The notes beneath the pieces were generated by a model. The model saw only the letters and a list, made by a program, of their open reading frames with translations. It made no database searches and was not told the origin of the DNA. Source: Candidatus Peribacteria bacterium (GTDB lineage: Bacteria; Patescibacteriota; Gracilibacteria; UBA1369; 2-02-FULL-48-14). Taken from it: 51,865 nucleotides of DNA. Each line of letters opens with the position of its first letter. The first letter of the stretch is position 1. Location: positions 1 through 51,865 of the forward strand of contig CALQZQ010000004.1 in assembly GCA_943349825.1 (NCBI GenBank), read 5' to 3'. This document shows positions 14,651 through 51,203 of the stretch, piece by piece. The translations under genes and the position numbers were made by a program.

Positions 14651-14669
14651 GGCGTGAAAAAAGTGCGAA

Positions 14670-15008
14670 TTAAGATTTTCTGGGTTCTTTGTCGAAGAGC
14701 TGGGTGAAGTCTCCGTTGAATTCTTTTAAGAAATTGTGCATGTCTAAGACTTCGTTGGAGCTGACGTGGCCCATACGAGGCGCGTTGCCCAAATGGGGTT
14801 CCGGGCAGTTGAACCAAGTGGGGTCGATTTGCACGTTGATGACAGATTGGGTTTCGCAATGGATGCACCACGCGTGGAAGAACACTTGTTCATCGCCTAA
14901 ACTGCCGATGATTTCGATGTCTTCATCGGTGTAGCGTGCCTTACAATCAGGGCACTTCATGGTGCGTTTGATTTGGCTGACGATGATGCGAAGGTCGTGA
15001 AAATTCAT
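14670..15008 (-). CDS. Small zinc-ribbon protein
   Basis: 112 residues. Two Cys pairs, MKCPDCKARY (about 17-26) and WCIHCETQS (about 47-55), spaced as in a zinc ribbon, with beta-rich sequence between. The C-terminal half (VLDMHNFLKEFNGDFTQLFD) is helical. In CPR genomes similar small proteins are annotated only as hypothetical. Met17 is an alternative start but would leave almost nothing before the first Cys pair. Confidence 0.75.
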   Translation of the reverse strand: MNFHDLRIIVSQIKRTMKCPDCKARYTDEDIEIIGSLGDEQVFFHAWCIHCETQSVINVQIDPTWFNCPEPHLGNAPRMGHVSSNEVLDMHNFLKEFNGDFTQLFDKEPRKS

Positions 15009-15078
15009 AAATCTCTTTAGCTAGCCTCTATTTTAGCTCAGCTGGGCGGCTCAATCCAGCATTATTTAGCGGATTTCA

Positions 15079-15112
15079 AAAGAGTCCCCTCGTTTTGTCG
15101 AGAGGACTCTTT
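15079..15112. terminator. Strong bidirectional hairpin terminator
   Basis: Stem of 13 pairs with one mismatch (AAAGAGTCC...GGACTCTTT) and a six-nt loop, 12 nt beyond the stop of the gene at 15124-15993. It ends that minus-strand transcript and separates it from the zinc-ribbon gene. Confidence 0.75.
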
Positions 15113-15123
15113 GGGAGTTTTGT

Positions 15124-15993
15124 TTAGACCGTTTCTTTTTGGTCGTCCATTGGACCTGTAGGTTTCATTGTTACTTCTGGTCCTACAGCTTCTGCTTCTG
15201 CATTGTGTTGAGCCATGCGTGCCGCTTGTACTTCCACGCTTTGGCGTTTCACTTCAGCGCGTACCTCAGTCATGAGCTTGGAGGCCCACTCGGCTGGCTT
15301 TGCGGCCAGACCCGCTCCTTTTCCTACGGTATCGAGAACAGGTTTGAGTGGTTCGAGTGTCGGGATAGCTAGAGCGATCCAACCCAAGACTTTTGCACCG
15401 GTAGCGGCCACTTTGAGTCCTTTTGCAGCCATTTCATCAATAGATTTGGCTTCTTCCTCACTGCATTCGAGCAGACCGAGACTACAATACATTTGAACGA
15501 CTGCGGGGGTAAAGTCGCCGATGTCTAGGTTTTCAGGTTTGTAGGTTTTGCGTTTGAAGAAGTGCCAGGTGTTTTCAGCCATTTCCAACATGGGCAGGGT
15601 GTTGGCCTTAGCCATGGCCAGCATCTTCCAGATTAGGCTGTTCCCTTTGAGGAATTCGGAGCGGCCTTCTGGAGTGAGTTCGTTCCAGACGTAATTCAAC
15701 TTCCACGCTTCGGTTCCTTCTACATTCATGTCGGCTTCAATGGCCATGGCCTTTCCGACGAGTTGATTTTTGATGACGTCTTTAGCGTAAGCTTCGGCGC
15801 CGGTTTTTTTGGCGAGCTCAGCCCCGGCTTTGGTTTTACCTTCCAGATCTTTCCAAACGTCTTGTTTGTTTAAAGTAACGTCATCGTTGTCGCCACTTTC
15901 GGACGTAGTATCCGTTGATTCGCTGTCACCTGTAGGAGCAGCGGGCACGTCAATATCGTTATCCACTTCTGGACCTGAGTTTGAGTCAGACAT
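15124..15993 (-). CDS. Hypothetical protein with acidic low-complexity N-terminus
   Basis: 289 residues. Residues 1-40 are almost only Asp/Glu/Ser/Thr/Pro/Ala (VDNDIDVPAAPTGDSESTD). A helical body follows (about 45-165), then a hydrophobic stretch (about 195-220, VAATGAKVLGWIALAIPTLE) and a helical C-terminus (ASKLMTEVRAEVKRQSVEVQ). No signal peptide. Not recognised. Its leader just before the ATG (CCCCAAAGCTCT) is shared with two other unknown genes in this window (30160-30498 and 30535-30915), a hint that they are regulated or translated alike. Confidence 0.7.
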   Translation of the reverse strand: MSDSNSGPEVDNDIDVPAAPTGDSESTDTTSESGDNDDVTLNKQDVWKDLEGKTKAGAELAKKTGAEAYAKDVIKNQLVGKAMAIEADMNVEGTEAWKLNYVWNELTPEGRSEFLKGNSLIWKMLAMAKANTLPMLEMAENTWHFFKRKTYKPENLDIGDFTPAVVQMYCSLGLLECSEEEAKSIDEMAAKGLKVAATGAKVLGWIALAIPTLEPLKPVLDTVGKGAGLAAKPAEWASKLMTEVRAEVKRQSVEVQAARMAQHNAEAEAVGPEVTMKPTGPMDDQKETV

Positions 15994-16022
15994 AGAGCTT
16001 TGGGGTTAAAAAGCCTTATAAC

Positions 16023-16051
16023 AGAATACGTCTACGCCTTAATTTTGTCAA
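16023..16051 (-). promoter_or_regulatory. Promoter of the 289-residue hypothetical gene
   Basis: TTGACA (16046-16051, full consensus), 17-nt spacer, TATTCT (16023-16028), inside the last codons of gltX. Leader about 23 nt. Confidence 0.7.
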
Positions 16052-17462
16052 GGGCGGTGCGGAGGCGCTTGAGGGAGAGCTCTTTGCCCATCACTCGTAG
16101 GAGTTCGAAGACGCCGGGGGAGTATTCCTCGTTGGTGAGGGCCACTCGAAGTGGCCAGAGCATTTGGCCGTTTTTCACGCCCATTTTTTCGATGACTTTG
16201 GTGAGGCATTCTTTGATGGCGTCGTCGGTGTAATCGTTCAGAGTTTCGAGGGCAGGGAGGGCTTGTTCCAGGGCGAGTGCCACCATAGCCTTGTCCACTT
16301 TCATTTTTTCACTGAGGAAAAGAGCTTCGTTGTAGTCGAGGTTCTCGAGCAGGAAGGGGCGGAGCATGGCGGGGCCGTCGTTCAAGCTTTTCATGCGGGT
16401 TTGCACGGAGGCCACGAAGGTGAGGAACTGATCGTTGAGCAGGTTTTTGGAGAACCAGGGTTCGCGTTCGAGCAGGGGCATGATGAGCTCGGCAAGATCC
16501 TTGGGCGATTTTTCGCGCATGTAATGTCCGTTGAGCCAATCGAGTTTTTCCAGATTGAAAACAGCGCCCCCTTTTTGAACGCGATCCAGACTGAAGCGTT
16601 CCACGAGCTGATCTAGGGTAAAGAGCTCTTCTTCTGTGCCGGGGTTCCAACCGAGAAAAGCGATGAAATTGAGGATGGCTTCTTTCAAATAGCCTTTCTT
16701 AATATAGTCTTCGGCAGCCACATCGCCTTGGCGCTTCGAAAGTTTGGTGCGGTCTGGGTTGAGGAGCAGCGGGAGATGCGCGAAAGTGGGGGGAGTCCAA
16801 CCGAGGTCACGGTAGAGCCAGATGTGTTTGGGGGTGGAAGGCAGCCATTCTTCGCCGCGGATCACGTGGGTGATGCCCATGTCGTGGTCGTCTACGACGT
16901 TGGCGAGGTGATAAGTGGGGAAGCCGTCGGATTTGATGAGGACTTGGTCGTCCACATCGCGACCGTGGAAACGCATTTCGTCACGAATGAGATCCGTGAA
17001 AGTGACTTCTTCGTAGGGAATGAATTGCCGTATGACGAAAGGCACTTTGGCATCGAGTTTGGCCTGCATTTTTTCAGGGTTGAGCTCGCGGCAACGACGA
17101 TCGTATTTGGGGGCGATTTTGCGGGCGGTTTGGTCGGCGCGCATTTGTTCGAGGTCTTCCTCGGTGCAGAAACAGCGGTAGGCTTTGCCTTCGTCCAGGA
17201 GTTGATTCGCGAATTTGCGGTAGAGTTCGGTGCGCTGGGATTGGAAGTAGGGGCCTTCGTCCCAGTTCAAATCAAAAAATTTCAGGACTTCTTGCAGGCT
17301 TTCTACGGATCCTTCTACAAAGCGTTTTTGATCGGTGTCCTCGATGCGCAAAATGAATTTGCCTTTATTTTGACGGGCAAATAAATAAGCGTAGAGCGCC
17401 GTGCGGAGTCCGCCGACGTGCAAGAAACCTGTGGGGGATGGGGCGAAACGTGTAACAACCAT
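16032..17462 (-). CDS. gltX: Glutamyl-tRNA synthetase
   Basis: 476 residues. Class I synthetase charging tRNA-Glu (and possibly tRNA-Gln, if the organism uses GatCAB). HIGH region in RFAPSPTGFLHVGGLRTALY (residues 5-24), DTDQKRFVEGS, the conserved block HLANVVDDHDMGITHVIRGE and the KMSKS-type loop RTKLSKRQGDV (about 240). The C-terminal helical anticodon-binding domain is complete. The ATG at 17462 is preceded by a promoter whose -10 box is six nt upstream, with no Shine-Dalgarno sequence. Confidence 0.97.
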   Translation of the reverse strand: MVVTRFAPSPTGFLHVGGLRTALYAYLFARQNKGKFILRIEDTDQKRFVEGSVESLQEVLKFFDLNWDEGPYFQSQRTELYRKFANQLLDEGKAYRCFCTEEDLEQMRADQTARKIAPKYDRRCRELNPEKMQAKLDAKVPFVIRQFIPYEEVTFTDLIRDEMRFHGRDVDDQVLIKSDGFPTYHLANVVDDHDMGITHVIRGEEWLPSTPKHIWLYRDLGWTPPTFAHLPLLLNPDRTKLSKRQGDVAAEDYIKKGYLKEAILNFIAFLGWNPGTEEELFTLDQLVERFSLDRVQKGGAVFNLEKLDWLNGHYMREKSPKDLAELIMPLLEREPWFSKNLLNDQFLTFVASVQTRMKSLNDGPAMLRPFLLENLDYNEALFLSEKMKVDKAMVALALEQALPALETLNDYTDDAIKECLTKVIEKMGVKNGQMLWPLRVALTNEEYSPGVFELLRVMGKELSLKRLRTALDKIKA

Positions 17463-38205: not shown

Positions 38206-38730
38206 GTGTCTATTCACGCACTCATGGACAATACTTTTGAAACGCCTCAGGGCCGTCTTCTTCCCACGTTAGTGGCTTTCGTTTTTGTTTTAGGGCTTCT
38301 GTATACGCTTTACTTGGCTTTTACTCAGTACAATTTGAAGGGAGCCATTGAAGACTTGGGTGTGCAGAAAGAAAAACTCACCGGGCAAATTGAAGTGCTT
38401 AAAGATCAACAAGTCGCTGAAATTTTTGTGGCGCAGGAGCTCAAGAATAAATTGGAAGTGCTTGCAGTTCGTTGGTCTACAGTGGTGACCCAGTTCAATC
38501 AACTCACTCCAGTGGGAGTATTTTTGAGCAGTTATGGTATTTCCAGTGAGGGCAGTATTCAGGTGAGTGGAGTGGGAGATGATTTTGATTCTGTGGCGAG
38601 CATGATTGCTGCATTCAACGATTCTGAGGACTTTGGCGATGCCTTCGTCCCTTCCGTTACGCAGGGCACGACCAGTGATGGGCAGTCTGTGGCGACCTTT
38701 AGTTTAACCACTCACACTGTGGCTCAATGA
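38206..38730 (+). CDS. Type IV pilus assembly protein, PilN-like
   Basis: 174 residues. Start GTG 38206 is supported by a strong Shine-Dalgarno AGGAGG at 38191-38196 with nine-nt spacing, one of few clear SD sites in this window. A short cytoplasmic N-terminus leads to one membrane helix (about 19-38, LVAFVFVLGLLYTLYLAF), a coiled coil (EDLGVQKEKLTGQIEVLKDQ) and a small extracytoplasmic domain. Topology and position before a PilO-like gene fit PilN, the inner-membrane platform that links PilM to PilO. Sequence similarity alone is weak. The SD and GTG sit on a GACACC/GGTGTC hairpin that could limit initiation. Confidence 0.65.
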   Translation: MSIHALMDNTFETPQGRLLPTLVAFVFVLGLLYTLYLAFTQYNLKGAIEDLGVQKEKLTGQIEVLKDQQVAEIFVAQELKNKLEVLAVRWSTVVTQFNQLTPVGVFLSSYGISSEGSIQVSGVGDDFDSVASMIAAFNDSEDFGDAFVPSVTQGTTSDGQSVATFSLTTHTVAQ

Positions 38731-39245
38731 AAACCACCCAATCTTCACAATTGTTGTCGATTCTTCTGCTCATGCTCATGATGGTGGGAGGTGTTTTCTT
38801 TGTTCTGCCCATGCGTGACACCATTACAGAATTGTCCACGCAGCAAGTTACTGTTACGGATGAGATCACTGTGCTGCAGACCGAGTACGATGCGTTGGCC
38901 GCTCTAGCGGATGAAGTTTCTCAGAGTGCGAGTACTAAAGAAGCTTTGATGAAAGCGGTTCCTTCTGGTTATGGCGAAGACACTTTGCTTTTGGATGTGG
39001 CCGCAATGGCAGGTGATGCCGGCTTTAAGCTCAACGCCATCAACTTTTCTTTGGGCTCCGATCCTGATTTGGGAAGTACTATTACGGTGACGACTAATCT
39101 TACGGGAGATTACGATCAGTTGGTGGATTTTTTGCAAAAAGTAGAGAGTTCAGAACGTTTGATGCAAGTTAAATCTCTCAATGTGCAGCGCACCAGTGCC
39201 ACGGCAATAGCATTTAACGTGCAAATCGAAGCGTATTATCAATAA
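38727..39245 (+). CDS. Type IV pilus assembly protein, PilO-like
   Basis: 172 residues. One N-terminal membrane helix (about 8-28, LLSILLLMLMMVGGVFFVLP), a coiled coil (LSTQQVTVTDEITVLQTEYD) and a ferredoxin-like C-terminal domain (DTLLLDVAAMAGDAGFKLNA, GDYDQLVDFLQKVESSERLM), the classic PilO layout. It would pair with the PilN-like protein. The ATG overlaps the stop of the previous gene (ATGA). Confidence 0.75.
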   Translation: MKTTQSSQLLSILLLMLMMVGGVFFVLPMRDTITELSTQQVTVTDEITVLQTEYDALAALADEVSQSASTKEALMKAVPSGYGEDTLLLDVAAMAGDAGFKLNAINFSLGSDPDLGSTITVTTNLTGDYDQLVDFLQKVESSERLMQVKSLNVQRTSATAIAFNVQIEAYYQ

Positions 39246-39250
39246 AATTT

Positions 39251-40405
39251 ATGGTTGACCTGATGTCGCGTCCGTCGGAAAAGGAGACTTCGGTGGTTTA
39301 TGGAGTCTACAACTCTTCCGCGCAATCTTTTTCTGTGCGTTTTCAGGATTTTTTCATCGATCGAAAAAAAGTGGGAGTGGAAGACAAATCCTATTTTTTC
39401 CATTTGTTGGCGGTGATGCTGGATGCAGGAATTCCTGTGACGCGTGCGCTCAAGGTGCTTTCCAAAAAAACAGACAACCCTCGTTTTGCGCGCATAGTGA
39501 ACACGATTGCTTATGATGTGGAACGTGGAAAATTGGTGAGCCAATCCATGACCAAATTTCCGGATGTCTTTAAAGAATCGGAAGTGGGAGTGATTCGCAG
39601 TGGAGAAAGCATCGGAAATTTAGGGAAGCTTTTATTCAAACTTGCGGAACAAACTCGGAAGTCGCATTCTTTGATGATGAAAGTGCGGGGAGCGCTCATT
39701 TATCCCTCGACCGTCTTGATTGCTTTATTCATCTCTGGTGCCATTGTGGTGCAAGTGGTGATCCCGCAGATCGATCAATTTTTTACTCAAGCCAAGTTTG
39801 AAATGCCCTTCATGACTCAGTTGGTTTTGAATGTGGGGCGCTTCATGGTGAACTTCAGTTGGCTTCTGCTTGCATTGATAGTTTTTGCGAGTCTTTTGAT
39901 TTCGTTTTACATCAGCATGGAATCGGGGCGTCGTCGCTTGGATACATTTTTGCTCTCGGCTCCATTCGTCAATGATGTGGTTCGTAAGGTGAATGTGGCG
40001 CGCTTCGTGCAGATTTTGAGTTTGCTCGTGGAATCCGGTGTGCCCATCCATGAGGCGATTCACATTGCGTCTGGGGCCATGAACAATCGTTTGTATCAGG
40101 ATTTTTTGGTGCAACTCAAATACCAAGTGGAACGTGGAGAAAAGATTGCGGACAACTTGGCCAAGGCACCATTTCTGTTTCCGGAAACAGTGGTGGCCAT
40201 GATTTCTGTGGGAGAAAATTCCGGGCAGTTGGCGAATATTTCGCAAAAATTGGCGTCCCATTATGAAGATGAAGTGGAACATTCTTTGGAAAATTTCACG
40301 ACTTTGCTCGAACCTTTGGTCATTGCGGTGGTGGGAGTGGCGGTGGGAGTTTTGGCCATCGCTCTGCTCGGGCCTATCTTCTCACTGTCTTCCTTAGTTT
40401 CTTAA
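39251..40405 (+). CDS. pilC: Type IV pilus inner-membrane platform protein PilC (type II secretion F family)
   Basis: 384 residues. Two GspF/PilC repeats: FFHLLAVMLDAGIPVTRALK with VIRSGESIGNLGKLLFKLAE (about 48-140), and FVQILSLLVESGVPIHEAIH with AMISVGENSGQLANISQKLA (about 250-345). Three membrane helices (about 155-178, 205-230, 355-380). Rotates pilin into the fibre with the PilB/PilT ATPases, which are not in this window. Met1 or Met5 may be the start. Confidence 0.92.
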   Translation: MVDLMSRPSEKETSVVYGVYNSSAQSFSVRFQDFFIDRKKVGVEDKSYFFHLLAVMLDAGIPVTRALKVLSKKTDNPRFARIVNTIAYDVERGKLVSQSMTKFPDVFKESEVGVIRSGESIGNLGKLLFKLAEQTRKSHSLMMKVRGALIYPSTVLIALFISGAIVVQVVIPQIDQFFTQAKFEMPFMTQLVLNVGRFMVNFSWLLLALIVFASLLISFYISMESGRRRLDTFLLSAPFVNDVVRKVNVARFVQILSLLVESGVPIHEAIHIASGAMNNRLYQDFLVQLKYQVERGEKIADNLAKAPFLFPETVVAMISVGENSGQLANISQKLASHYEDEVEHSLENFTTLLEPLVIAVVGVAVGVLAIALLGPIFSLSSLVS

Positions 40406-40416
40406 ACCTTAGTAGG

Positions 40417-40974
40417 ATGAAAAAGAGCAGCGCTTTCACCCTCATTGAACTTTTGATCGTGATTTGCATCATAGGGATTTTGGCAGCGGCTATTATTTTG
40501 AATTTTAGTGGGGCTCGAGAGCGCCAACAGCTTTCCATTTTGGCCGATAAAAGTGTGGCGATGCTGCAAGTGGCTCAGCAAGATGTGCGTTCGGGAAAAT
40601 ACGACAGTGCGGCCGGACAGTATTTTTGTGAAGGAGCGCTTTTTGCCGAAGAAGCGGAGCCGCTTTTTGTGACCATGCCTTACGACACCGCAACGGGGGC
40701 GTGTGCTTTTGACGCGGTGATTGAAGAAAACTATGGACTGGGTACGGCACCGGCGGTGGTGGAAACCATTACGGTGGGGAGTGGGGATGTAGAGGAGCTG
40801 TACGCCCTTTATGTGCCTCCGGATGCTGAGTTTGTTTTTTATGATTCTTCGGGAACGGCTCAAAGTGGCGATGGCTTGATCACTTTCACTAGCGGCGGAG
40901 GCACCGAACCTTATAGTATTTCTTTGAATTTATCTGCGTTCACCGGGATTGCTGCTCTTACTCTCACTGAATGA
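40417..40974 (+). CDS. Type IV prepilin-like protein 1
   Basis: 185 residues. Class III signal peptide MKKSSA-FTLIELLIVICII: cleavage before Phe7 and the Glu5 of the mature chain are present, followed by the hydrophobic helix needed for fibre packing. The C-terminal domain is acidic and beta-rich (DVEELYALYVPPDAEFVFYD). Could be a minor pilin or the main subunit; the length suits a minor pilin. It starts 11 nt after pilC. Confidence 0.88.
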   Translation: MKKSSAFTLIELLIVICIIGILAAAIILNFSGARERQQLSILADKSVAMLQVAQQDVRSGKYDSAAGQYFCEGALFAEEAEPLFVTMPYDTATGACAFDAVIEENYGLGTAPAVVETITVGSGDVEELYALYVPPDAEFVFYDSSGTAQSGDGLITFTSGGGTEPYSISLNLSAFTGIAALTLTE

Positions 40975-41495
40975 AAACTAAGGCTTTTACTCTCATTGAA
41001 ACCTTGATCGCCATCACGCTGATGACCGTGGTGATCACCGCTGTAACTGGACTTATTTTGACCACCTTGCAAGCCAATGCGCGCAATTTGCGTAGTTTGC
41101 AGGCCACTTTGTTGGCGCAAGAGGGTTTGGAGGCGCTACGCTATATGCGGGATTCCAATTGGTTGCAGAATTACGATTGGGATGGCGGTGACGCCCTGTG
41201 GGGTGAGAATTTTGAGGCGGGTACGAGTGGGAAAACGGTGTATTTACAGTCTACGGCGTGTACTTCTGTTTTATCTTCGCACCCGTGTTTTGAACTTTCT
41301 ACGAATCCGGATGATGCGGAAGTGACCTTGGAGGGTGGTATGGTTTTTGAGCGCAGTTTGGCCTTGCTTGCAGTGACGGAAGCCGACGGAACTCTCAATT
41401 CGAACGAAAGTGAAGTGACTGCCACGGTGACTTGGGAAGAACGTGGAGTGGACCGATCCATTCAGCTCTCTACTTATTTGACCAATTGGAAATGA
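40971..41495 (+). CDS. Type IV prepilin-like protein 2 (PilV/GspI-like)
   Basis: 174 residues. MKTKA-FTLIETLIAITLMT carries the prepilin peptidase site and Glu5. Next comes ATLLAQEGLEALRYMRDSNW, typical of PilV/GspI-type minor pilins. ATGA overlap with the previous gene. Confidence 0.85.
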   Translation: MKTKAFTLIETLIAITLMTVVITAVTGLILTTLQANARNLRSLQATLLAQEGLEALRYMRDSNWLQNYDWDGGDALWGENFEAGTSGKTVYLQSTACTSVLSSHPCFELSTNPDDAEVTLEGGMVFERSLALLAVTEADGTLNSNESEVTATVTWEERGVDRSIQLSTYLTNWK

Positions 41496-42148
41496 ACACT
41501 CGCTTGAAATCGCCGGCGTTCACTCTGATTGAAATGATCGTTGCGATCACGGTGTTTTCCATTTTCATTGGTTTCGCGATCTCCGCTTTTTTGAGTTTTC
41601 ATCGTGCGGACCAGGAGGCTTTGGTGGACCGCAGTTTGATGATGGAGGCCGGGCAGGTCATGGATATTCTGACGACGGACATCAAAGAAAATAAAATTGA
41701 TTATGAGTATTATGATGATGGCTCGGGTTCCCCTTTTACTTTTACTTTTCCCTTTACCGTTGAGCTTGGTGATCATGTCTTGAATGAATCCGTGCTCGTG
41801 CTGCGGAGTGTGGACGGGCTTACCCGCACCGTTTACACTTGGGACTCGGATCCGGATGTATTAGGGTTGACGGTGCAAAAATTCGACATGACTGATGTGA
41901 CGAATCCCGTTGCACTGGATGGCTACACCGACCCTTTGCCCATGACTTCTGATCATGTGTATTTGAATGATGTGAATTTCCGTATTTTCCCAGATGTGGA
42001 CCCTTACGATCCCGAGAATGCTTCTGATGACGCTACGGCTTTTCAGCCCGTGGTGACTCTCAATTTGATTTTTGCTGCTGAGGGCCGCGTGCGAGAAGAA
42101 GTCACTTTGCCGCTGCAAACCACTGTCACTAGCCGTTTTTATCAATGA
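41492..42148 (+). CDS. Type IV prepilin-like protein 3 (PilW/GspJ-like)
   Basis: 218 residues from ATG 41492, which overlaps the previous stop (ATGA). Signal MNTRLKSPA-FTLIEMIVAI with Glu5, then SLMMEAGQVMDILTTDIKEN, in the style of PilW/GspJ minor pilins, and a beta-rich C-terminal domain (SVLVLRSVDGLTRTVYTWD). Probably part of the tip complex with prepilins 1 and 2. Confidence 0.85.
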   Translation: MNTRLKSPAFTLIEMIVAITVFSIFIGFAISAFLSFHRADQEALVDRSLMMEAGQVMDILTTDIKENKIDYEYYDDGSGSPFTFTFPFTVELGDHVLNESVLVLRSVDGLTRTVYTWDSDPDVLGLTVQKFDMTDVTNPVALDGYTDPLPMTSDHVYLNDVNFRIFPDVDPYDPENASDDATAFQPVVTLNLIFAAEGRVREEVTLPLQTTVTSRFYQ

Positions 42149-43092
42149 AAAATTTTAAGCTCCATTCTCGGGCAAGTGCGCTGTTGGTCTCGTTTTTCTT
42201 GATGAGTATTTTGGTGCTGGTGGGAATGGCGGTTTCGGTGCTGGTGCTTCACGATTTGCGTGCCAGTCGAACCATGGTTTCCGGGACCCAGGCTTTGTAT
42301 GCTGCGGAAGGGATGACTGAATTGGGTCTTCAGTCGCTGAAGGACAATTTGCCGGGTTACGAAGAGGCTGGCCTCACGGATTTTCTCTTCTTGAACAGTG
42401 CGGTGGCCACGCTGGTGGTGCACGCGCGGGAATACGATGTGCCTTGTGACGAGCAGGGAGATGACTGGCGAGCCTTGGTTCAAAATGAGTCCATTCAAAT
42501 TCCTTTGTTTGCTCAAACGGCAGCCGATGGAACTACGGTGAAGATCAGTAACTTTTACGTGGAATTTTATGTGGCGGATTCCGAAGGTAACGCGACGTTT
42601 GCTCCTAGTAATGACGTTCTGCGCTGGAAAATTTTGGGACTAGTGAATGATACGGGTACTACTCAAGCGGTTTCTGAGTATATCCCGCTGGATAGTGGTA
42701 GTAGTACAGGTGCGTCCGTATTTGGCACGGACCCGGAACTGGTGGATGCCTCGGCTCCTACTGGTTATAAATATGGAAAATTTTATAATAATGCCGGTGG
42801 TTTTGGCAGTATCTTGGAACCGTACTATTCCATCGAAACTTTCTTACAGGATCACAGCTACAGTTATTTGGTCCTCACGAATGTGGTGACGCGTGAGTAT
42901 GAAAACACCATTTATTTCCGTTTCCATAGTCAGGATGAAATGGGGGTTTGTGAGTATGTGAAATTGGCTTCTACGGGAAAGGGGCCTAACGAGGATACTC
43001 AGCAGGAACTCACTACTCTGGTGAAAGAAGGCGAAAATCTGCCTGTTTTTGATTTTGTGCTCTACCACACTGGCGAATACACGGCACCGTGA
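42145..43092 (+). CDS. PilX-like minor pilus protein
   Basis: 315 residues. A hydrophobic N-terminal helix without FTLIE signature (ASALLVSFFLMSILVLVGMA) is followed by ALYAAEGMTELGLQSLKDNL, a region seen in PilX/GspK-type proteins that cap the pilus. The large C-terminal domain is beta-rich and unrecognised. ATGA overlap with the previous gene makes this the end of the seven-gene pilus operon; the next gene is on the other strand. Confidence 0.75.
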   Translation: MKNFKLHSRASALLVSFFLMSILVLVGMAVSVLVLHDLRASRTMVSGTQALYAAEGMTELGLQSLKDNLPGYEEAGLTDFLFLNSAVATLVVHAREYDVPCDEQGDDWRALVQNESIQIPLFAQTAADGTTVKISNFYVEFYVADSEGNATFAPSNDVLRWKILGLVNDTGTTQAVSEYIPLDSGSSTGASVFGTDPELVDASAPTGYKYGKFYNNAGGFGSILEPYYSIETFLQDHSYSYLVLTNVVTREYENTIYFRFHSQDEMGVCEYVKLASTGKGPNEDTQQELTTLVKEGENLPVFDFVLYHTGEYTAP

Positions 43093-43117: not shown

Positions 43118-44740
43118 TTAGGCTCTAGCCGCTTTTTCTTTTAGCCCAGCGAGTTGTTTGAGTTGCGCTATGTTTTGAGCGGTATGTGTTCCAATTGAGC
43201 TTGCACTCCACCCCATGCTGATAGCTGCTTTTGATACGTACCTTGCAAAAGACATTTCCTGACCATTTTGTAGTTTTGCTGTCGTGTCGCTTTGTTTTGT
43301 GTCCAAATCAGCAGCAGCAATGGGAGGATTCCTTAGGGACCCAAAGGCCTCAAGGTCTGATCGTACATTACTTGCATTGTTAAAATAGTGCTGGTTTAGG
43401 GCTTCATATCCCGCCGTTTTTTTCAATTCCTCTAAAATAATACTCCTTACGCTTGAACATTCGCTAGTATCCATTGCTAATCCCAGCGCCACTGCGGCTT
43501 TGTTTAGATACGTACCGAAAGTCAGTTTTTCTTTATTGGGTAATTCTGCTTTTATCCTGATTTGGTGTAGACTGACGGTCAAATCCAGGGCCGTTGTTGC
43601 TGCGTGCCCCCCCTGATTGACGAATGCCTCCAAATCCGCTCTTACAGAATCTCTGTCCTTAAAATGCTTTTCGTTTAAAAGGTCCAATCCAGCCCTTTCT
43701 TTGAGTGTTTTTAAAACATCAGCCTTTATAGAGATCGCTTCACGTGCAGTTTTAGCAATACCCATGCTTTTTGCGGCTTCGCATAAATACACTCCAAGTG
43801 ATATAAATTTGCCATTGGATAAGTTTGCTTTTCGATTTAGTTCTTTTGTTGTTAGGCATAGCTCTATGCCTTCAATGGGTGGGTTACTGGCTGCAGCGAA
43901 TGCTTCTAAGTCTGCTCGTATGTAGTTTGGGTTCTCAAAATAAGTCGAATCTAGTTTTAGATTTTGTTCGGTAGGATTTTTAGGTTTTTGGAGTATTTGC
44001 TTGATCGTTTGTTTATGATTTTCCGGCCCTTCCCATATGAAATGTTGGATGAGTGGGTCCTCTTTTAGCTCGTCTTTATTTTTTTTGGCCTGAATTAGTG
44101 CTGATTCTTCATTTTCACTTTTGAAAATGAAGCTTCTATTTCCCACCTCGTTACATACTAGAATGTAGTATCCCGTTTCTCCTGCCTTTATTAACGTGTA
44201 TGGAGTTTTCCTCAACATGTTTTCTGAGACGATTCCATCTATTATGTCGCCTTCCTTCAGGGTGATGCCCAGCTCCATCAAGGCTTCTATTGTCAGCTTG
44301 AGACGCTCGGTTTTTGTGAATTCTAGGGTTCGATCTGAAGGTATACCTGAGCGGATTGGGCCATTTCCTCCGTTGCTTGGGACTAGAACGTCCGCTACAT
44401 TTTGGGTTATTCTCTCTATTAATTCGTCAATTCCTTCCATTTGTTGGACCGCTTCGGCGGGCGCTTCAGTTTTAGGCATTTGGCTTATAGCCATTTGCTG
44501 TACTTTTGCGGCTTCTTCTAAAATGGATGGGGGAAGTGAGCCTATCCTATAGTTGGGATTCATCCCTAGAGGGTGCTGACCAATTTTTAGTGTTTTTGAT
44601 AAGTCACCGTTTATTTGAATAGCCACTATACCTGCGATCTCTCTGAGACTATAGAAAGGCTTATTGCCCCCCTCGAAAGGAAGAGAGCGTGGTTCTCGGG
44701 GAAGACAGTCCTCGAATTTTGGGTAGTGGTCTGAACTCAT
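43118..44740 (-). CDS. Protein of unknown function with three about 88-residue internal repeats
   Basis: 540 residues, not recognised. The N-terminal 250 residues hold a region ERLKLTIEALMELGITLKEG and YTLIKAGETGYYILVCNEVG (beta-rich). From about 270 three repeats follow, each with a start like YFENPNYIRADLEAFAAASN, a middle with KANLSNGKFISLGVYLCEAA or LPNKEKLTFGTYLNKAAVAL, and an end like LKTLKERAG. Shared skeleton: F-x4-xxxRxDLEAF ... L-xNxxxxxFxxYLxxAAxxxG ... LKxxAG. No signal peptide or membrane helix. More A/T-rich than flanking genes. The repeats suggest a binding scaffold, perhaps for nucleic acid or repeated proteins; this is inference. Confidence 0.75.
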   Translation of the reverse strand: MSSDHYPKFEDCLPREPRSLPFEGGNKPFYSLREIAGIVAIQINGDLSKTLKIGQHPLGMNPNYRIGSLPPSILEEAAKVQQMAISQMPKTEAPAEAVQQMEGIDELIERITQNVADVLVPSNGGNGPIRSGIPSDRTLEFTKTERLKLTIEALMELGITLKEGDIIDGIVSENMLRKTPYTLIKAGETGYYILVCNEVGNRSFIFKSENEESALIQAKKNKDELKEDPLIQHFIWEGPENHKQTIKQILQKPKNPTEQNLKLDSTYFENPNYIRADLEAFAAASNPPIEGIELCLTTKELNRKANLSNGKFISLGVYLCEAAKSMGIAKTAREAISIKADVLKTLKERAGLDLLNEKHFKDRDSVRADLEAFVNQGGHAATTALDLTVSLHQIRIKAELPNKEKLTFGTYLNKAAVALGLAMDTSECSSVRSIILEELKKTAGYEALNQHYFNNASNVRSDLEAFGSLRNPPIAAADLDTKQSDTTAKLQNGQEMSFARYVSKAAISMGWSASSIGTHTAQNIAQLKQLAGLKEKAARA

Positions 44741-44746
44741 GTATGT

Positions 44747-44774
44747 ATTATAACATGTATTCTCGTCTAGTCAA
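44747..44774 (-). promoter_or_regulatory. Promoter of the three-repeat protein
   Basis: TTGACT (44769-44774), 16-nt spacer, TATAAT (44747-44752, full consensus), exactly six nt before the ATG at 44740. The strongest example of the leaderless layout in this window. Confidence 0.8.
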
Positions 44775-44785
44775 CGTACGGACCT

Positions 44786-44813
44786 TTGGAGGTTCAAGGC
44801 CTTGTGTTATTCT
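44786..44813 (+). promoter_or_regulatory. Promoter of metG
   Basis: TTGGAG (44786-44791), 16-nt spacer, TATTCT (44808-44813), 10 nt before the ATG. Divergent from the promoter at 44747-44774. Confidence 0.5.
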
Positions 44814-44823
44814 CGTTTTACTG

Positions 44824-46269
44824 ATGCCTAAATTTTACCTGACCAATGCGATTGCGTACGTGAATGCGGGCCCACACATGGGGCATGCGCTGGAAGCTGT
44901 GCAAGGAGACGCTTTGGCGCGTTATCACCGCATGATTGGCGACGAGGTGTATTTTTTGGTGGGGACGGATGAGCATGGCAGCAAAATTCAACAAGTGGCC
45001 AAAGACAAGGGCATGGAGCCCCAGGCGCTCGCAGATATGAATGCCGCTTTGTTTGTGGATTTTCATAAAAAAGTGAACGCTTCCAACGATGATTTTATTC
45101 GTACGACCAGCGAACGACACAAGGAGGGCGCGCGCAAAATTTGGGAACTGATTGAAGCGGCGGGCAAGTTTTATGACAAAGAATACGAAGGAAAATACTG
45201 TACTGGCTGCGAAGCTTTTATTTTGGACAAGGACTTGGTGGAGGGACTTTGCGCTATCCATAAGCGCGCGCCCGATGTGCTCAAAGAAAAAAACATTTTC
45301 TTCAAATTGTCCGATTACTCCGAGGCGATCAAAGCCAAAGTGGAATCTGGAGAGCTGGAGATTCGTCCTGCTTCGCGTCGCAATGAATTTTTATCTTTTC
45401 TCAAAGAAGGGCTTCAGGATGTGAGTTTTTCGCGTCCTAAAAAAACCTTGTCGTGGGGGATTGAAGTGCCGGGTCATGAAGACCAAGTGATGTACGTGTG
45501 GTGCGATGCACTGACCAATTACATGACGGCGCTGGGTTATGCAGAAGACAGCGAACTCTACAAAAAGTTTTGGCCGGCGGATGTGCATTTGATTGGAAAA
45601 GACATCATTCGTTTTCATTGTGGGATTTGGATTGGAATGCTGATGGCCGCGCAATTGCCACTGCCCAAGGCGGTTTATGTGCACGGTTTTGTGACCAGTG
45701 AAGGGCAAAAAATGAGCAAGTCACTCGGGAATGTGGTGGATCCCATGGAACTTTTGGAAAAATATGGAGCGGACCCGGTTCGCTACTACTTGCTGCGTGA
45801 AATTCCCAGTGACGACGATGGCGATTTTTCACGTGAACGTTTTGCGGTGGTTTATAAAGACGAGCTCCAAAACACCATTGGAAACTTGGTGCGCCGGGTG
45901 CTCACCATCGCTACGAAAAGTTTTGAAGGAAAAATGCTGCAAGGAGACGGCCATTTTAATGAGCGAATCGACGCGGCTTGGGAACGCTACCGTGAGCATT
46001 TTGAAGCCTTCAACATCAAGGGTGCTTTGGAAGCTATGGTGGAATTGGCACGACTCGCCAATCTTTATGTAGACGAAGAAAAACCTTGGGTACTCGCTAA
46101 AACAGATTTGGCTCGTCTTGAGGTGGTGATGGGAAATTTGGTGGTGCTCATTCGAGTGCTGGGTGAAATGCTCGAGCCCGTTTTGCCCGAGACCGCAGAA
46201 AAGATCCTCACACAAGTGGGCAAGGACTCTTTGGTGCTAGGAGATGCGTTGTTCCCGCCTATTGACTGA
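44824..46269 (+). CDS. metG: Methionyl-tRNA synthetase
   Basis: 481 residues from ATG 44824 (MPKFYLTNAIAYVNAGPHMG). Class I enzyme charging initiator and elongator tRNA-Met. HIGH region NAGPHMGHALEAVQGDALAR, VGTDEHGSKIQQ, the single zinc knuckle CTGCEAF...CAIH (about 125-145), KMSKS in SEGQKMSKSLGNVVDPMELL (about 300) and a helical anticodon domain. The C-terminal tRNA-binding (Trbp111-like) domain found in longer MetRS is absent, as in other short bacterial forms. The 3' end overlaps the convergent lipoprotein gene by 11 bp. Confidence 0.97.
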   Translation: MPKFYLTNAIAYVNAGPHMGHALEAVQGDALARYHRMIGDEVYFLVGTDEHGSKIQQVAKDKGMEPQALADMNAALFVDFHKKVNASNDDFIRTTSERHKEGARKIWELIEAAGKFYDKEYEGKYCTGCEAFILDKDLVEGLCAIHKRAPDVLKEKNIFFKLSDYSEAIKAKVESGELEIRPASRRNEFLSFLKEGLQDVSFSRPKKTLSWGIEVPGHEDQVMYVWCDALTNYMTALGYAEDSELYKKFWPADVHLIGKDIIRFHCGIWIGMLMAAQLPLPKAVYVHGFVTSEGQKMSKSLGNVVDPMELLEKYGADPVRYYLLREIPSDDDGDFSRERFAVVYKDELQNTIGNLVRRVLTIATKSFEGKMLQGDGHFNERIDAAWERYREHFEAFNIKGALEAMVELARLANLYVDEEKPWVLAKTDLARLEVVMGNLVVLIRVLGEMLEPVLPETAEKILTQVGKDSLVLGDALFPPID

Positions 46270-46609
46270 CCATGGCATTGGCAAGCTCGGAAGCGTCTAC
46301 TCCCTTTTCGCTGAGGGCAGCTCCACAAGTGGCGGTGAGGGTGTCGCGGGCGGTGGCGCTCACGGTGTTCAGTTCCTCTGTGCCTTGAATGCTAGTGAGA
46401 TAATCGTCGATGTCGGAAGCTTGTTCGAAGCCGTATTTCTTCATGATGGCGTCGCTTTCTTCGGACATGGTGTCTATTTTGCTGGGGTCTTCAAAAATGA
46501 TGCAAGCCGTTTCAGCCATGGCTTTTCCAGCGTTTTCGGCCATCGAAGCAGGTCCACAAGCGGTTAAAAGTACTGCAGCAGTAAGCAAGAGAGCGAAACG
46601 TTTCTTCAT
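46259..46609 (-). CDS. Small lipoprotein with conserved Cys pair
   Basis: 116 residues from ATG 46609 (MKKRFALLLTAAVLLTACGP), lipobox LLTAC (Cys18). The mature part is helical (IDTMSEESDAIMKKYGFEQA) with two further Cys residues (TACIIF and TATCGAAL) that could form a disulphide. Not recognised. It follows the pilin-like operon by 44 nt on the same strand and may be its last gene. Confidence 0.75.
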   Translation of the reverse strand: MKKRFALLLTAAVLLTACGPASMAENAGKAMAETACIIFEDPSKIDTMSEESDAIMKKYGFEQASDIDDYLTSIQGTEELNTVSATARDTLTATCGAALSEKGVDASELANAMVSQ

Positions 46610-46653
46610 GTAAGGAGGTTTAGAAATGAATGGAGGTCGGGTCCAGTCTACCC

Positions 46654-47070
46654 TCATCCTGTGGAAGAGTCCACTTGCAGAATAACAGAGATTACGCCTT
46701 GTACGATGGCGTAGGAAAAGAGAATGGTGATGAGCCCCATCAGGGACCAGAATATGCCGCGTTTACCGCGTTCAATGCGTTCATCTTTACCGAAGGCCAG
46801 AATGTAATTGGCTCCTGCCAAGATGATGAAAATTACGGCGATAGAGCCCATGAAGAGCAGTACTTGGCTCACCAAATTTCCTACATAGAGAATCAAAGTT
46901 TGTGTGGCGGCTGTTTCCGGATGATCTTCGCTGATGGCTTCTGCGGCGGTGCTTTCGGGCAGGTTGTCGGGTCGTAAGTAATCGGGCAACTGGATCACGG
47001 CCATGGCAGAGGGGCTGGCCGTAGTCAGTATTGTGAACAGTCCACAGCTGAGCAGAAGTTTTTTGATCAT
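46654..47070 (-). CDS. Type IV secretion pilin-like membrane protein (one module)
   Basis: 138 residues. Signal peptide (about 1-24), then two membrane helices with a short basic loop: QVLLFMGSIAVIFIILAGAN, YILAFGKDERIERGKRGIFW, SLMGLITILFSYAIVQGVIS. The module TM - G-x3-4-I-x-AK/GK-x2-I - TM matches VirB2-type T4SS pilins as annotated in CPR genomes (T4SS_pilin family; recognition is mine, not searched). ATGA overlap with the upstream gene. Confidence 0.75.
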   Translation of the reverse strand: MIKKLLLSCGLFTILTTASPSAMAVIQLPDYLRPDNLPESTAAEAISEDHPETAATQTLILYVGNLVSQVLLFMGSIAVIFIILAGANYILAFGKDERIERGKRGIFWSLMGLITILFSYAIVQGVISVILQVDSSTG

Positions 47071-47912
47071 TCGCTGGTGTCGTTAAGATCTGTGAAGACT
47101 TCATCGGTGTTGTCTGTGGGACTGTCGTCCAATTGTAAAGTGGCGATACCGTAGATGATGGCATACCCCAGTGAAACGAGGACTAGAGCCATGGATGAGT
47201 AAAGAATGATGTTTTTCGCCTTGCCTACTTCCTCTTCGTTTCCACGGCCAATGACCATAAGGGTGCCTCCATACATGAGGGAAATGAAGACGAGGAAGCC
47301 CACCATGTACATGATGTTGGTCACCGCTGCGGGTACGATTTCACCTAAAAAGTCTCCGTTGGGGAGCGAAACGCGGCCCTGATCATCCTGATCTTCAATG
47401 AAGGTTTTTTCGTCCGGCATCAGGAAGTTGATGTCTTCATCTACGTTCACGGCGTGGGCGCTGGGAATGAAGAAACTAGTGCTCTCTGCTGCTTCTTCTG
47501 CGGCGTCGTTACTGGAATTGGGCAGAGCAATGGACACCACAATGGACACGATTCCGTAGGCAAGAATGGTGATGAGAAAGCCCAAAAGGCCATACCGTAG
47601 ATTGGTTTTGGCTCGATTGAGTTGATCTTCTTTTCCGTAGGCGGTGAGCATTTGTATGGCGGAAATCAAGATACCGGCAAAAGCGGCCAAACCGAGTAAA
47701 CCAATCCCTATGTTGATGGCTTTGGGGATTCCTGTGGCCAATAAATAATCTTGAACGCCACTCCCGGTGGTGGTTTGCGTGGGGCCGGGCATGAATTCTG
47801 GCTGAGGAATGACGGGTATGTCTGTGGCCTGGGCCAAGCCTGTGAGCAAGGGCAGGAGCATGGTGGAGAGCAGGGCCAAGATCGTCACGAAAATGAGGAT
47901 TTTTTTGATCAT
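47067..47912 (-). CDS. Type IV secretion pilin-like membrane protein, tandem two-module
   Basis: 281 residues. A signal peptide (LLSTMLLPLLTGLAQA) is followed by two copies of the pilin-like module: IQMLTAYGKEDQLNRAKTNL with a following GLLGFLITILAYGIV (about 85-130), and GTLMVIGRGNEEEVGKAKNI with YSSMALVLVSLGYAII (about 215-260). An acidic linker (about 150-195) separates them. A fused dimer would place two subunits at fixed stoichiometry. ATGA overlaps on both sides couple its translation to both neighbours. Confidence 0.78.
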   Translation of the reverse strand: MIKKILIFVTILALLSTMLLPLLTGLAQATDIPVIPQPEFMPGPTQTTTGSGVQDYLLATGIPKAINIGIGLLGLAAFAGILISAIQMLTAYGKEDQLNRAKTNLRYGLLGFLITILAYGIVSIVVSIALPNSSNDAAEEAAESTSFFIPSAHAVNVDEDINFLMPDEKTFIEDQDDQGRVSLPNGDFLGEIVPAAVTNIMYMVGFLVFISLMYGGTLMVIGRGNEEEVGKAKNIILYSSMALVLVSLGYAIIYGIATLQLDDSPTDNTDEVFTDLNDTSE

Positions 47913-48688
47913 GAGAAGAAGTCTGGATTGATGGTGTAGAGAATCAAAGATGAAACGAAGAGCAGCACGATTCCTCCGATGGCTTGTAAGATTTTGGTTT
48001 TGGCTTCCGAAATGTCGCCACTCACTCCCGAGAGTGAGATTTTGATTCCTTGGAAAATGATGGTTCCCACGGCCATGCTGCCCACGGCAAAGGCACCCCA
48101 GGTGTAAATTTGCTTCACGAAGAGCTTGAGGAGGCCTGTCCCTGATTCAGCAATCAACCATTGGCGTTCTTGGCAGCCTACCCCTGCTTCTGTACAGGTT
48201 TTGTAATCATCCGTGTAAACGGTTCTCGTCTCCCTGCAACTGATTTTGCTGAGGTCAGTGGGGTCTGATTGGTAGTAGACGAAACAACAGGTGCCTTGGA
48301 AGACGCCCATCACAAAAGTATTGTCGTCCAACGTTACATTGGGGGCAATGGGTTCGGTGATTTCGGAGACGATCTTTCCTTCGGCACTGCAGTCGCCTTT
48401 TTCCAGTAAACTTGTGGTGGGGTTAGTCTCACCACATTCCCCCCCTCCATTTTCTGATCCGTATTTGATGGTTTTTTCTAGGTTGCTCGCGAAGGCTTGA
48501 TAGTCTGCGTCTGTAGCGAGTGATGTTGTGGAACTGGCCACTTTATGCGACTGGCTACAAAGCCCTGCAGTATCCCAAGCGCCATCGTCGGTGCCGGATT
48601 CTTCTTCGTCATCGGCAGCCGCCATGAAAGGCGCAGCGAAGGCCGCTAGGTAGGAGACCAAAAATAGAGTGAAGAGTTTACGTTTCAT
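47909..48688 (-). CDS. Type IV secretion pilin-like protein with large Cys-rich N-terminal domain
   Basis: 259 residues. Signal peptide (about 1-24), an extracytoplasmic domain of about 150 residues with about ten Cys (LCSQSHK, GGECGETN, KGDCSAEG, GTCCFVYY, ISCRETR, KTCTEAGVGCQERQ) likely forming disulphides, then the pilin module IKISLSGVSGDISEAKTKIL with LQAIGGIVLLFVSSLILYTI. The Cys-rich head could be an adhesin or cap. It shares one nucleotide with the stop of the upstream gene (TGATG). Confidence 0.75.
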   Translation of the reverse strand: MKRKLFTLFLVSYLAAFAAPFMAAADDEEESGTDDGAWDTAGLCSQSHKVASSTTSLATDADYQAFASNLEKTIKYGSENGGGECGETNPTTSLLEKGDCSAEGKIVSEITEPIAPNVTLDDNTFVMGVFQGTCCFVYYQSDPTDLSKISCRETRTVYTDDYKTCTEAGVGCQERQWLIAESGTGLLKLFVKQIYTWGAFAVGSMAVGTIIFQGIKISLSGVSGDISEAKTKILQAIGGIVLLFVSSLILYTINPDFFS

Positions 48689-49134
48689 CAGTAGAAAAAA
48701 GATTGAACAAACGTGACAAGGTAGTAAGCCGAGAAGGCCACGAGTAGGCCGATGATGGACTGCAGTAAGATGCTTTTGGCTCGGTCGATTTTGCTTACTT
48801 CTCCGTTGGCTATGGTCATGAGGATGCCGGCGTAGAAAATCGTCACAAAGGCAAAGGTACCGATGGTGAGTAGTAGAATGTTGATTATGCGCAATATGAG
48901 TGCAGCGGCAACAGAGCCAGCGGCTTCGGAATCTTCTTTGATTTCATCGGCCAAGGCGGTGCTTCCTCCCAGGTTTTGACAATCTTCCACGTTCAAAATG
49001 TCGAAGGAGGAAAAGTGTTCTTGGCTATCGGTGCTGGTGCTCGTGCTCTCGGGACAGTCGTCGGCAAAAGCCAAGGGAAGTGATCCCCATAGGGTTAAAC
49101 TGAGCAGTGCGGCGAGGAGCACTTTTCGGGCCAT
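48688..49134 (-). CDS. Type IV secretion pilin-like membrane protein (one module)
   Basis: 148 residues. Signal peptide (about 1-24), a short domain with two Cys, then the module: ALILRIINILLLTIGTFAFV, GILMTIANGEVSKIDRAKSI, LLQSIIGLLVAFSAYYLVTF. It is the first pilin-like gene after the ATPase, 17 nt behind it. Confidence 0.75.
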   Translation of the reverse strand: MARKVLLAALLSLTLWGSLPLAFADDCPESTSTSTDSQEHFSSFDILNVEDCQNLGGSTALADEIKEDSEAAGSVAAALILRIINILLLTIGTFAFVTIFYAGILMTIANGEVSKIDRAKSILLQSIIGLLVAFSAYYLVTFVQSFFY

Positions 49135-49151
49135 ACGTGTTTTGGCGTGAA

Positions 49152-51203
49152 TTATTCCCTGTAATTATACCTTTTTTTCACCTTTTCTTCAACCACAGCT
49201 CTCTGGCGGCTCATCTGGGCCCGGGAGCGGTCTTTGAGTGCGGCGAGTTCGGGTGAGTTTTGAGTGGGTAGCGGGTTCACGTCCAGGCGGAAAAGGGGCA
49301 GTGGACTTTGGTGATGGAGGAGGCGTGCATAAGCCTGAAACGGGGCGAGCTGTGTGAGGTCTTCTTCCAGCAGGCCGAGGGAAGGTGCGAGGATTTGCGC
49401 ATCTTGATAGCTGGTGCGGAAACAGAGCAGGGAGCCCGCGTTGCCGAGCACGGCATCTTGGATTTCGGGTGGCAACTGCGTGAGGTACTGGTTGGCGAGG
49501 GTGAGGGCGAGGCCGTATTTGCGCAGCTCGGAGAGCATGGAGAGCAAGGTTTTGGTGGCGAAGTTTTGGAACTCGTCTATGGTCACGGCCACGGTACGGC
49601 GCTCGGCGGGTGGAAGGGCGGCGCGACGGAGGAGTGCCGCGTGGATCATGGCGACGAACACCATGCCGAGCAGGCGACTTTGGTCTTCACCCAGTTTGCC
49701 CTTCGAAAGTGAGATGAGCAGAATTTTCCCTTCGTTCAGGGCCTCGTCCCAGTGCAGTTTTCCTTTGGGTTGGCTGAAAATATTTCGCAGCAGTGGATTG
49801 GTGAGCAGCGGCCCGACTTTGTTGAGAATCGGGGCGGTGTATTCTTGGCGCGTTTTGTCGTCCAGAGGCAGAAATTCTTCGTGAAAAAATCGCAGCAGTT
49901 CGGGATCGGTGATGGTGGCGAGGAGTTCACGAGTGCGACTGGGATTCGTGAGAAAAGGCGGTAGATTCAGCAGAGTGGTGTTGGGCGCCAAGGTGAGGGC
50001 GAGCAGGGCGTTGCGCAAAATATACTCGAGGCGCGGACCCCAACTGCCTTTGGACAGCACTTCAAACATGTCCACCAGCGCGGAGGTTTTGAGCACCGGA
50101 TCTTCGTGGCTTTGGCATTCCAGCGGATTCAGCGCGATGGGCCAGTCTTTGTCTGCGGGGTCGATCCACAGTAAATCTTTGTGGCGCTCCGGTGGTGTGA
50201 GTTTCACGGCTTCATCGATGAGGTCGCCGTGTGGATCCAGCAATACGATGCTGTGATTTTTTCGCAGATCTTCTTGGTAGAGTTGCAACAGCGTGGTGGA
50301 TTTTCCCATTCCGGTTTTGCCCACGAGGTAGAGGTGGCGCTTGCGGTCTTCGTCGTCGAGTTGCAGAGGATTTTGGCTGGGCGCGGGAAGGTAGGCGGTG
50401 CTCTCCGTGTGCAGCACTGGAGCGAAAAGTTTGGCGCTGGGTGGAGAAAGCAGCGTGGCGAGTTCTTCAGCACTCAAGATGAGCTCTGACGGATGGCGGC
50501 GCACGCTGAGTTCCCCTAGGTAGGGCAGCGTGAGCGTGTGGAAGTAGGCGTCGAAGCGGTGCGAAAGTTCAATGGTGACTTTGAAGAGTGGCCGCGAAAG
50601 TTTGTCCAGAATAGCGCGGCGTGGATCTTCACGCTCGTGTTGGGATTCCATCTGTTCTTCGGTGGCCTTGTGCGCGGCGGGAGTGGGAAGACTGTGACGG
50701 AGGAGTGGCCCGATGAGTCTGCGCAGGGTCAGTGAAAACCATCCTCGTGCTTCCCACTGATCAAAACGTCGTTCGGGCTGGTAGGCTTCGCGTTTCGCTT
50801 TTTTGAGGATGCGATGGCGGGTGTGTTCGCTGATTGGTGTGAGTGTGAGGCGCATGTACCCACCCGGAGTTTTTGCGAGTAGGGGCAGCAGCACTTCCAG
50901 TGGGGCGATGCGCGTTTTGTTCACGCGGTCTTCCAACTGTCCGTAGCGCCGAATGGGCAGCAGGGGGCCCTTTTTTTGGTGAACGAAGTAGCGTGGTTTT
51001 TGTGGCGCCGGAGTGGCGATGGTTTCGCAGCGGGAGCCGAGTAGAAAAGGTTCTAGGTTTTCGCTGAAGAGCAGATCCACTTTTCGCTCACGCTCGCTCA
51101 ACTGAATTTCCAGCGCGTGCGGGTGTTTTTGCACGCTGTGTAGCCAGTGCTCGATGAGCCTGGGGGAGTATTCGCGGGTTTCGCAGAGTCGTAGTCGCCA
51201 CAT
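49152..51203 (-). CDS. VirD4/TraD-like conjugation ATPase (type IV coupling protein family)
   Basis: 683 residues. Walker A YLVGKTGMGKSTTLLQLYQ (about 292-310), the conserved IVLLDPHGDLIDEA that follows it, RLEYILRNALLALTLAPNTT, Walker B VAVTIDEFQNFATKTLLSML (about 544-563) and FRTSYQDAQILAPSLGLLE near the end, typical of TraD/TraG/VirD4 and related CPR ATPases with a TraM-recognition-type domain. The N-terminal 280 residues are unrecognised and have no clear membrane helix, unlike classic VirD4. No relaxase, VirB4, VirB6 or VirB8-10 gene is near. -10 box TAGAAT six nt before the ATG; no good -35. Confidence 0.88.
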   Translation of the reverse strand: MWRLRLCETREYSPRLIEHWLHSVQKHPHALEIQLSERERKVDLLFSENLEPFLLGSRCETIATPAPQKPRYFVHQKKGPLLPIRRYGQLEDRVNKTRIAPLEVLLPLLAKTPGGYMRLTLTPISEHTRHRILKKAKREAYQPERRFDQWEARGWFSLTLRRLIGPLLRHSLPTPAAHKATEEQMESQHEREDPRRAILDKLSRPLFKVTIELSHRFDAYFHTLTLPYLGELSVRRHPSELILSAEELATLLSPPSAKLFAPVLHTESTAYLPAPSQNPLQLDDEDRKRHLYLVGKTGMGKSTTLLQLYQEDLRKNHSIVLLDPHGDLIDEAVKLTPPERHKDLLWIDPADKDWPIALNPLECQSHEDPVLKTSALVDMFEVLSKGSWGPRLEYILRNALLALTLAPNTTLLNLPPFLTNPSRTRELLATITDPELLRFFHEEFLPLDDKTRQEYTAPILNKVGPLLTNPLLRNIFSQPKGKLHWDEALNEGKILLISLSKGKLGEDQSRLLGMVFVAMIHAALLRRAALPPAERRTVAVTIDEFQNFATKTLLSMLSELRKYGLALTLANQYLTQLPPEIQDAVLGNAGSLLCFRTSYQDAQILAPSLGLLEEDLTQLAPFQAYARLLHHQSPLPLFRLDVNPLPTQNSPELAALKDRSRAQMSRQRAVVEEKVKKRYNYRE

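Follow-up and report, generated by a model that had tools for sequence, protein, structure and literature searches.

What does an operon build that encodes one ATPase and five different pilin-like modules? This question is raised by a locus in a 51,865-nt stretch of Candidatus Peribacteria DNA, referred to here as the window, whose own genome (1.25 Mb) is 98.8% complete. Few bacteria are as diverse and as poorly understood as Patescibacteria, and members of the window's order are tiny and probably depend on a host. Pilin arrays have been described in this phylum before: 441 arrays of 2-11 genes were read as suggesting variation, VirB4 was reported, and VirD4-like proteins were found mostly distant from virB4 (PMC12102498). 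A six-pilin array of Southlakia epibionticum is cited as essential for epibiotic growth (Wang et al. 2023, as referred to in PMC12102498 and PMC12857230). An earlier note on the window had proposed a self-contained, reduced type IV secretion system (T4SS), defined in part by its ATPase, in which different subunits are built in fixed ratio. The features on which our analysis draws are as follows:

49152..51203, minus strand: VirD4/TraD-like ATPase, 683 aa, whose N-terminal domain is shared with the 'type I' ATPases of the order (Pfam, orthologues, hhalign, model)
50295..50321, minus strand: Walker A motif of the ATPase, GKTGMGKST, residues 295-303 (alignment of six orthologues)
48688..49134, minus strand: subunit A, pilin-like, module 1 (PF18895 E 1.2e-5; positional orthologue in 23/23 loci)
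47909..48688, minus strand: subunit B, pilin-like with a Cys-rich outer head, module 2 (PF18895 E 8.3e-4; invariant Cys)
47067..47912, minus strand: C1+C2 tandem protein, modules 3 and 4 (PF18895 twice, 31.6 bits)
47448..47468, minus strand: IPSAHAV, an AxA motif resembling a signal-peptidase-I site, on the outer linker that joins C1 to C2 (all six orthologues share P150 and A154)
46654..47070, minus strand: subunit D, pilin-like, module 5 (PF18895 E 1.5e-5; positional orthologue in 23/23 loci)
46259..46609, minus strand: lipoprotein, a family-specific accessory whose ORF reaches 46657 (in 5/6 family genomes)
44689..46269, plus strand: methionyl-tRNA synthetase (MetRS), convergent conserved neighbour of the array (adjoins it in the order's loci, f24 and f19)
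38206..43092, plus strand: type IV pilus operon with PilN/O-like proteins, PilC and four pilins (PilC vs T2SSF 5.7e-51; FTLIE-type prepilins)

The six minus-strand genes (ATPase, A, B with its Cys head, C1+C2, D and lipoprotein, in operon order) lie where the earlier note had placed them, apart from the start of the lipoprotein, which is probably at 46609 rather than 46657, since the N-terminal extension lacks conservation. Successive genes from A to D overlap by 1-4 bases, and 17 bases separate the ATPase from A. A 540-aa protein (43118-44740) with three similar repeats of ~90 aa is encoded in the interval that separates MetRS from the type IV pilus operon.

All five modules proved to be of the T4SS pilin type. 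A search of the window's genome with the PF18895 profile returned 16 modules, five of which are those of the array (48706-48903, 47933-48121, 47538-47702, 47175-47324 and 46699-46902, all on the minus strand; E-values 1.5e-5 to 1.6e-4). When scored per protein, the two-module C1+C2 alone exceeded the Pfam curated cut-off of 26.6 bits, the other pilin proteins reaching 19.8-25.7 bits; orthologues in the sister genome G002 exceeded this cut-off (35.8 and 33.7 bits). The motif TM-G-x-I/L-x2-AK-x2-I-TM is present in 5/5 modules, and hydropathy and alignments indicate two TM helices with a short charged loop between them, preceded by a signal peptide. The A-D sequences lack the class III prepilin signal (FTLIE), which does occur in the pilus operon next to them. 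NF045849 of the Mycoplasma ICE (Mbov_0395) also matches three of the four pilin proteins weakly (2.1e-5 to 4.5e-3), all below cut-off, and in contrast to that element the array here has no ICE or VirB4 neighbours and no evident VirB6 neighbour. The predicted model of C1+C2, of low confidence (mean pLDDT 53.5), shows two helical hairpins, and we drew nothing further from it; compared with the PDB, it matched nothing at E <= 0.001, and a PDB sequence search with C1+C2 gave no match. A phage origin of the pilin proteins was rejected, as no phage family matched.

In the window's family, the order ATPase-A-B-C1C2-D beside MetRS recurs in 6/6 genomes as one conserved operon, and dusB lies at, or close to, the opposite end of the array. 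The lipoprotein is found in five of these genomes and is absent in the sixth, G005, the one draft genome in which the ATPase continues in frame through A (826 aa; L058). A single scan of genome contigs recovered just five sister loci and one weak match, the relatives being Candidatus Peregrinibacteria, Peribacteria and Gracilibacteria MAGs.

The strongest feature of the array, visible only when relatives are placed side by side, is the fixed identity of its subunits. A search based on B found a homologue in 54/60 genomes of the order. Loci were chosen by this B homologue and not by module number (17 from seven other families, plus the six of the window's family), and modules were counted by six-frame HMM search. 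Exactly five modules occurred in 23/23 array loci, spanning 8 families of one order, and 115/115 modules were matched best, outside their own family, by the module in the same place of the array (shuffling gave a mean of 23 and a maximum of 38), an arrangement far beyond chance. These matches therefore point to five ancient, distinct subunits kept in fixed order, and hence to a conserved subunit identity. Same-position identity was 33-53% as against 23% between positions, and modules within one genome were as dissimilar (23%) as different positions across families. When 70 modules were placed in a tree, each of B, C1, C2 and D was confined to one side of a branch; A was nearly so, but was not supported as a single group. 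Because of the same-position matches, the dissimilarity between positions and the module tree, the five positions most likely separated before the families of the order diverged. Thus, of the earlier proposal, the set of different subunits stands, in the same order in 23/23 loci, whereas a fixed ratio of the proteins is something we infer from it.

A further order, f24, carries the same five modules in the order A-B-C1-C2-D, in an array that lay outside the set from which the profiles were built. In f19, four modules stand beside MetRS, with VirB4 ~5 kb away. We abandoned an attempt to assign the five positions across the remainder of the phylum, where arrays have 4-8 modules and the position profiles do not separate them. 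Among the class-level matches, the B-type modules of G069 C39, G071 C10, G104 C13 and G270 C13 contain several in-frame TGA codons, which suggests that TGA encodes an amino acid in these genomes.

Like the published arrays of Patescibacteria, this one consists of tandem, divergent PF18895/VirB2-like genes of ~25% mutual identity, and like the majority of VirD4-type ATPases in this phylum, its ATPase lies away from virB4. It differs from them in a module number that stays constant and positions that correspond one to one across eight families, in its pilT-1/MetRS/type IV pilus neighbourhood and in the ATPase found within the operon of one family, none of which is described in PMC12102498 or PMC12857230. 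Nor did we find a paper on a pilT link of pilin arrays in the open-access literature. While such arrays are already known, the fixed five-subunit identity, the link to pilT and the exchange of the ATPase thus appear new; the parts are of known kinds, and it is their arrangement that differs.

The neighbourhood ties the array to type IV pili. In most families, pilT-1, the gene for the type IV pilus retraction ATPase, lies directly upstream of the array in the same direction, and the other side of the array is turned towards MetRS and genes for type IV pili; MetRS adjoins it throughout the loci of the order. PilT falls into two lineages, the array-adjacent PilT-1 and PilT-2, of which the window's family keeps only PilT-2. 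PilT-1 having been lost from this family, the VirD4-type ATPase stands at its usual place, a natural swap of the neighbouring motor gene. Adjacency of array and pilT-1 is not obligatory, because f15 has kept the array and moved pilT-1 away from it, and the linkage to pilT and MetRS may reflect neighbourhood inertia.

The ATPase itself matches TrwB_AAD_bind (2.9e-9), DUF87 (4.9e-9) and TraG-D_C (8.7e-4), in agreement with its earlier designation as VirD4/TraD-like. Orthologues in five sister genomes are 43-62% identical to it, and Walker A residues 295-302 are invariant in the six-orthologue alignment. With the coupling proteins TrwB and DotL it shares the ATPase domain, Walker A and the TraG-D_C region, and its model (mean pLDDT 67.2) fits both, the ATPase domain scoring Z 15.9 with DotL, 14.4 with VirB4 and 12.8 with TrwB. 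Unlike these proteins, it has no N-terminal TM helices: neither an anchor nor a hydrophobic stretch was found at the N-terminus of the six orthologues, an anchor being present in most type I relatives. Residues 1-280 match the type I N-terminal domain (hhalign, 98.9%, E 2.4e-17) as against 0.1% for VirB4. The low-confidence model loosely aligns over its length with VirB4; identification as VirB4 was rejected, as PF19044 does not list the protein and its N-terminal domain does not fit VirB4 in the profile comparison. A PDB sequence search gave one weak HerA match. The ATPase (49152-51203) also matches an unnamed phage family, phrog_5156, at 1.1e-39, better than every Pfam match; we judged this match uninformative and did not adopt a phage origin. 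In the ATPase tree, the proteins of the window's family share a long branch with two relatives located close to pgk, where type I ATPases usually occur, and the exact place of the family's proteins is unsure because of long-branch effects; among the matches, no other type I copy was found in this family. Among the loci examined, the ATPase belongs to the array operon only in the window's family, pilT-1 or another gene occupying its place elsewhere in the order, which does not support it as the defining part that the earlier note had made of it.

Pilin arrays were earlier read as variable surface coats; the order-wide identity and order of the subunits point instead to a five-part machine. The conserved unit is a set of five distinct VirB2/TrbC-type proteins (A, B, C1, C2 and D), all exported by signal peptides and each predicted to form a two-helix hairpin in the membrane around a short, positively charged cytoplasmic loop. 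Most likely, the five together would build one hetero-oligomeric pilus or channel projecting from the surface, with the Cys-rich head of B as the putative exposed, contact-making part. This head accounts for the ten Cys of the window's B, as the earlier note had counted them, seven of which (C85, C100, C134, C135, C151, C165 and C172) do not vary within the family. The array and the adjacently encoded type IV pilus probably work together, because PilT-1 is directly upstream of the array in the same direction in most families; in the window's family, a relocated VirD4-type ATPase would replace PilT-1, and would presumably move a substrate, DNA being the likeliest, through or into the structure. 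The role would probably be contact-dependent uptake; a host as the source is our guess, based on how this group lives. We give this reading as a whole, one hetero-oligomeric VirB2-like structure coupled to type IV pili with the VirD4-type motor in place of PilT-1, about an even chance of being right. A stricter form, a T4SS-type pilus or channel of five obligatory pilins in fixed order and ratio that is free of VirB4 and can switch motors between PilT-1 and a VirD4-type ATPase, we regard as unlikely.

The other genes of the genome bear directly on these readings. The earlier statement that VirB4 is lacking is correct at the locus but not for the genome, which encodes it at G000 C1:60166-62697, near gyrA/gyrB. 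Three further VirD4-like ATPases, eleven pilin modules outside the array, comEC, type IV pili, PilT elsewhere and other T2SSE ATPases are present as well. Because of the VirB4, the additional VirD4-like ATPases and pilin modules, comEC and the type IV pili, a self-contained reduced T4SS is not supported as it was proposed, though two genomes, G002 (family f1, 100% complete) and G019 (f15, 99% complete), keep the array and yielded no VirB4 in either profile or protein searches, an absence that in draft genomes is suggestive only. The array operon has no VirB6-like polytopic gene; the PF19590 (VirB6) profile found no match in the genome and none in controls either, so that its silence is uninformative. 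In G018, a VirB4 match (C6:294363-296378) contains an in-frame TAA and is possibly broken or a sequencing error.

The presence of VirB4 in the window's genome and in 12/15 genomes tested, its position near the array in f19 and the published interpretation of pilin arrays as variation (PMC12102498) would suit a reading of the five as alternative or sequentially used pilins of the usual Patescibacteria T4SS driven by VirB4, with their variation serving host range or something akin to escape and the locus being merely where those genes sit. Against expansion and variation of this kind stand the strict positional orthology and the constant number, and against the drive by VirB4 the two genomes with an array and no detectable VirB4; we hold it to be rather unlikely, and tentatively keep it as the best-surviving alternative. 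Distinctly less probable is an accessory role in the type IV pilus, for which the array's five subunits in the membrane would make up a structure at the base or exit and share an operon with PilT-1: the flanking pilT-1 and pilus genes of most families fit this, but the modules are of the T4SS type and lack prepilin signals, the array stays where PilT-1 has been lost or, as in f15, moved, and its neighbour in f19 is VirB4. A five-subunit importer like Ced or Ted, with a pilin conduit and a HerA/VirD4-type motor for comEC-independent DNA uptake serving nucleotides or repair, is very doubtful: Ced indeed has small pilins and HerA-clade ATPases, lacks VirB8-10 and depends on type IV-like Ups pili (PMC11868833, PMC9905601), and the ATPase does match CedD weakly (1.1e-9), but at 37.6 bits against a cut-off of 600, the operon has no polytopic CedA-like gene, and comEC is present too.

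For the hetero-oligomeric pilus or channel that we prefer, Ced/Ted would nevertheless be the nearest functional precedent by analogy (PMC11868833, PMC9905601), sharing two-helix small pilins, a HerA/VirD4-clade motor, a partnership with a type IV-like pilus and the absence of outer-membrane parts. The array differs from Ced in its five distinct pilins and, by the gene list of the operon, in the lack of a CedA-like polytopic protein at the locus. What the arrays build is a question that co-expression and structure can address directly.

In most families, C1 and C2 are two separate genes. Where subunits are fused, AxA-like motifs occur in the linkers (IPSAHAV, IPVAYAE, IPIAHAA, LPTAHAY and similar), as in the C1+C2 proteins of f1 and f9 and the C2+D protein of G152. 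Short alanine-rich motifs can arise by chance; we read the motif as a putative retained signal-peptidase site, at which signal peptidase may separate the fused subunits and so yield them in equal amounts. The lipoprotein encoded downstream of D carries the lipobox LTAC. Elsewhere in the window's genome, contig 2 harbours a second cluster of pilin modules with PKD proteins: two proteins of 1659 and 722 aa (L009:9621-14600 and 14602-16770) combine a pilin-type module with 6-8 PKD domains, and both adjoin two proteins with three modules each. On contig 3, a protein with a single pilin module (L011:6718-8250) lies beside a protein with a NADase_transloc F5/8 type C domain (4e-13).
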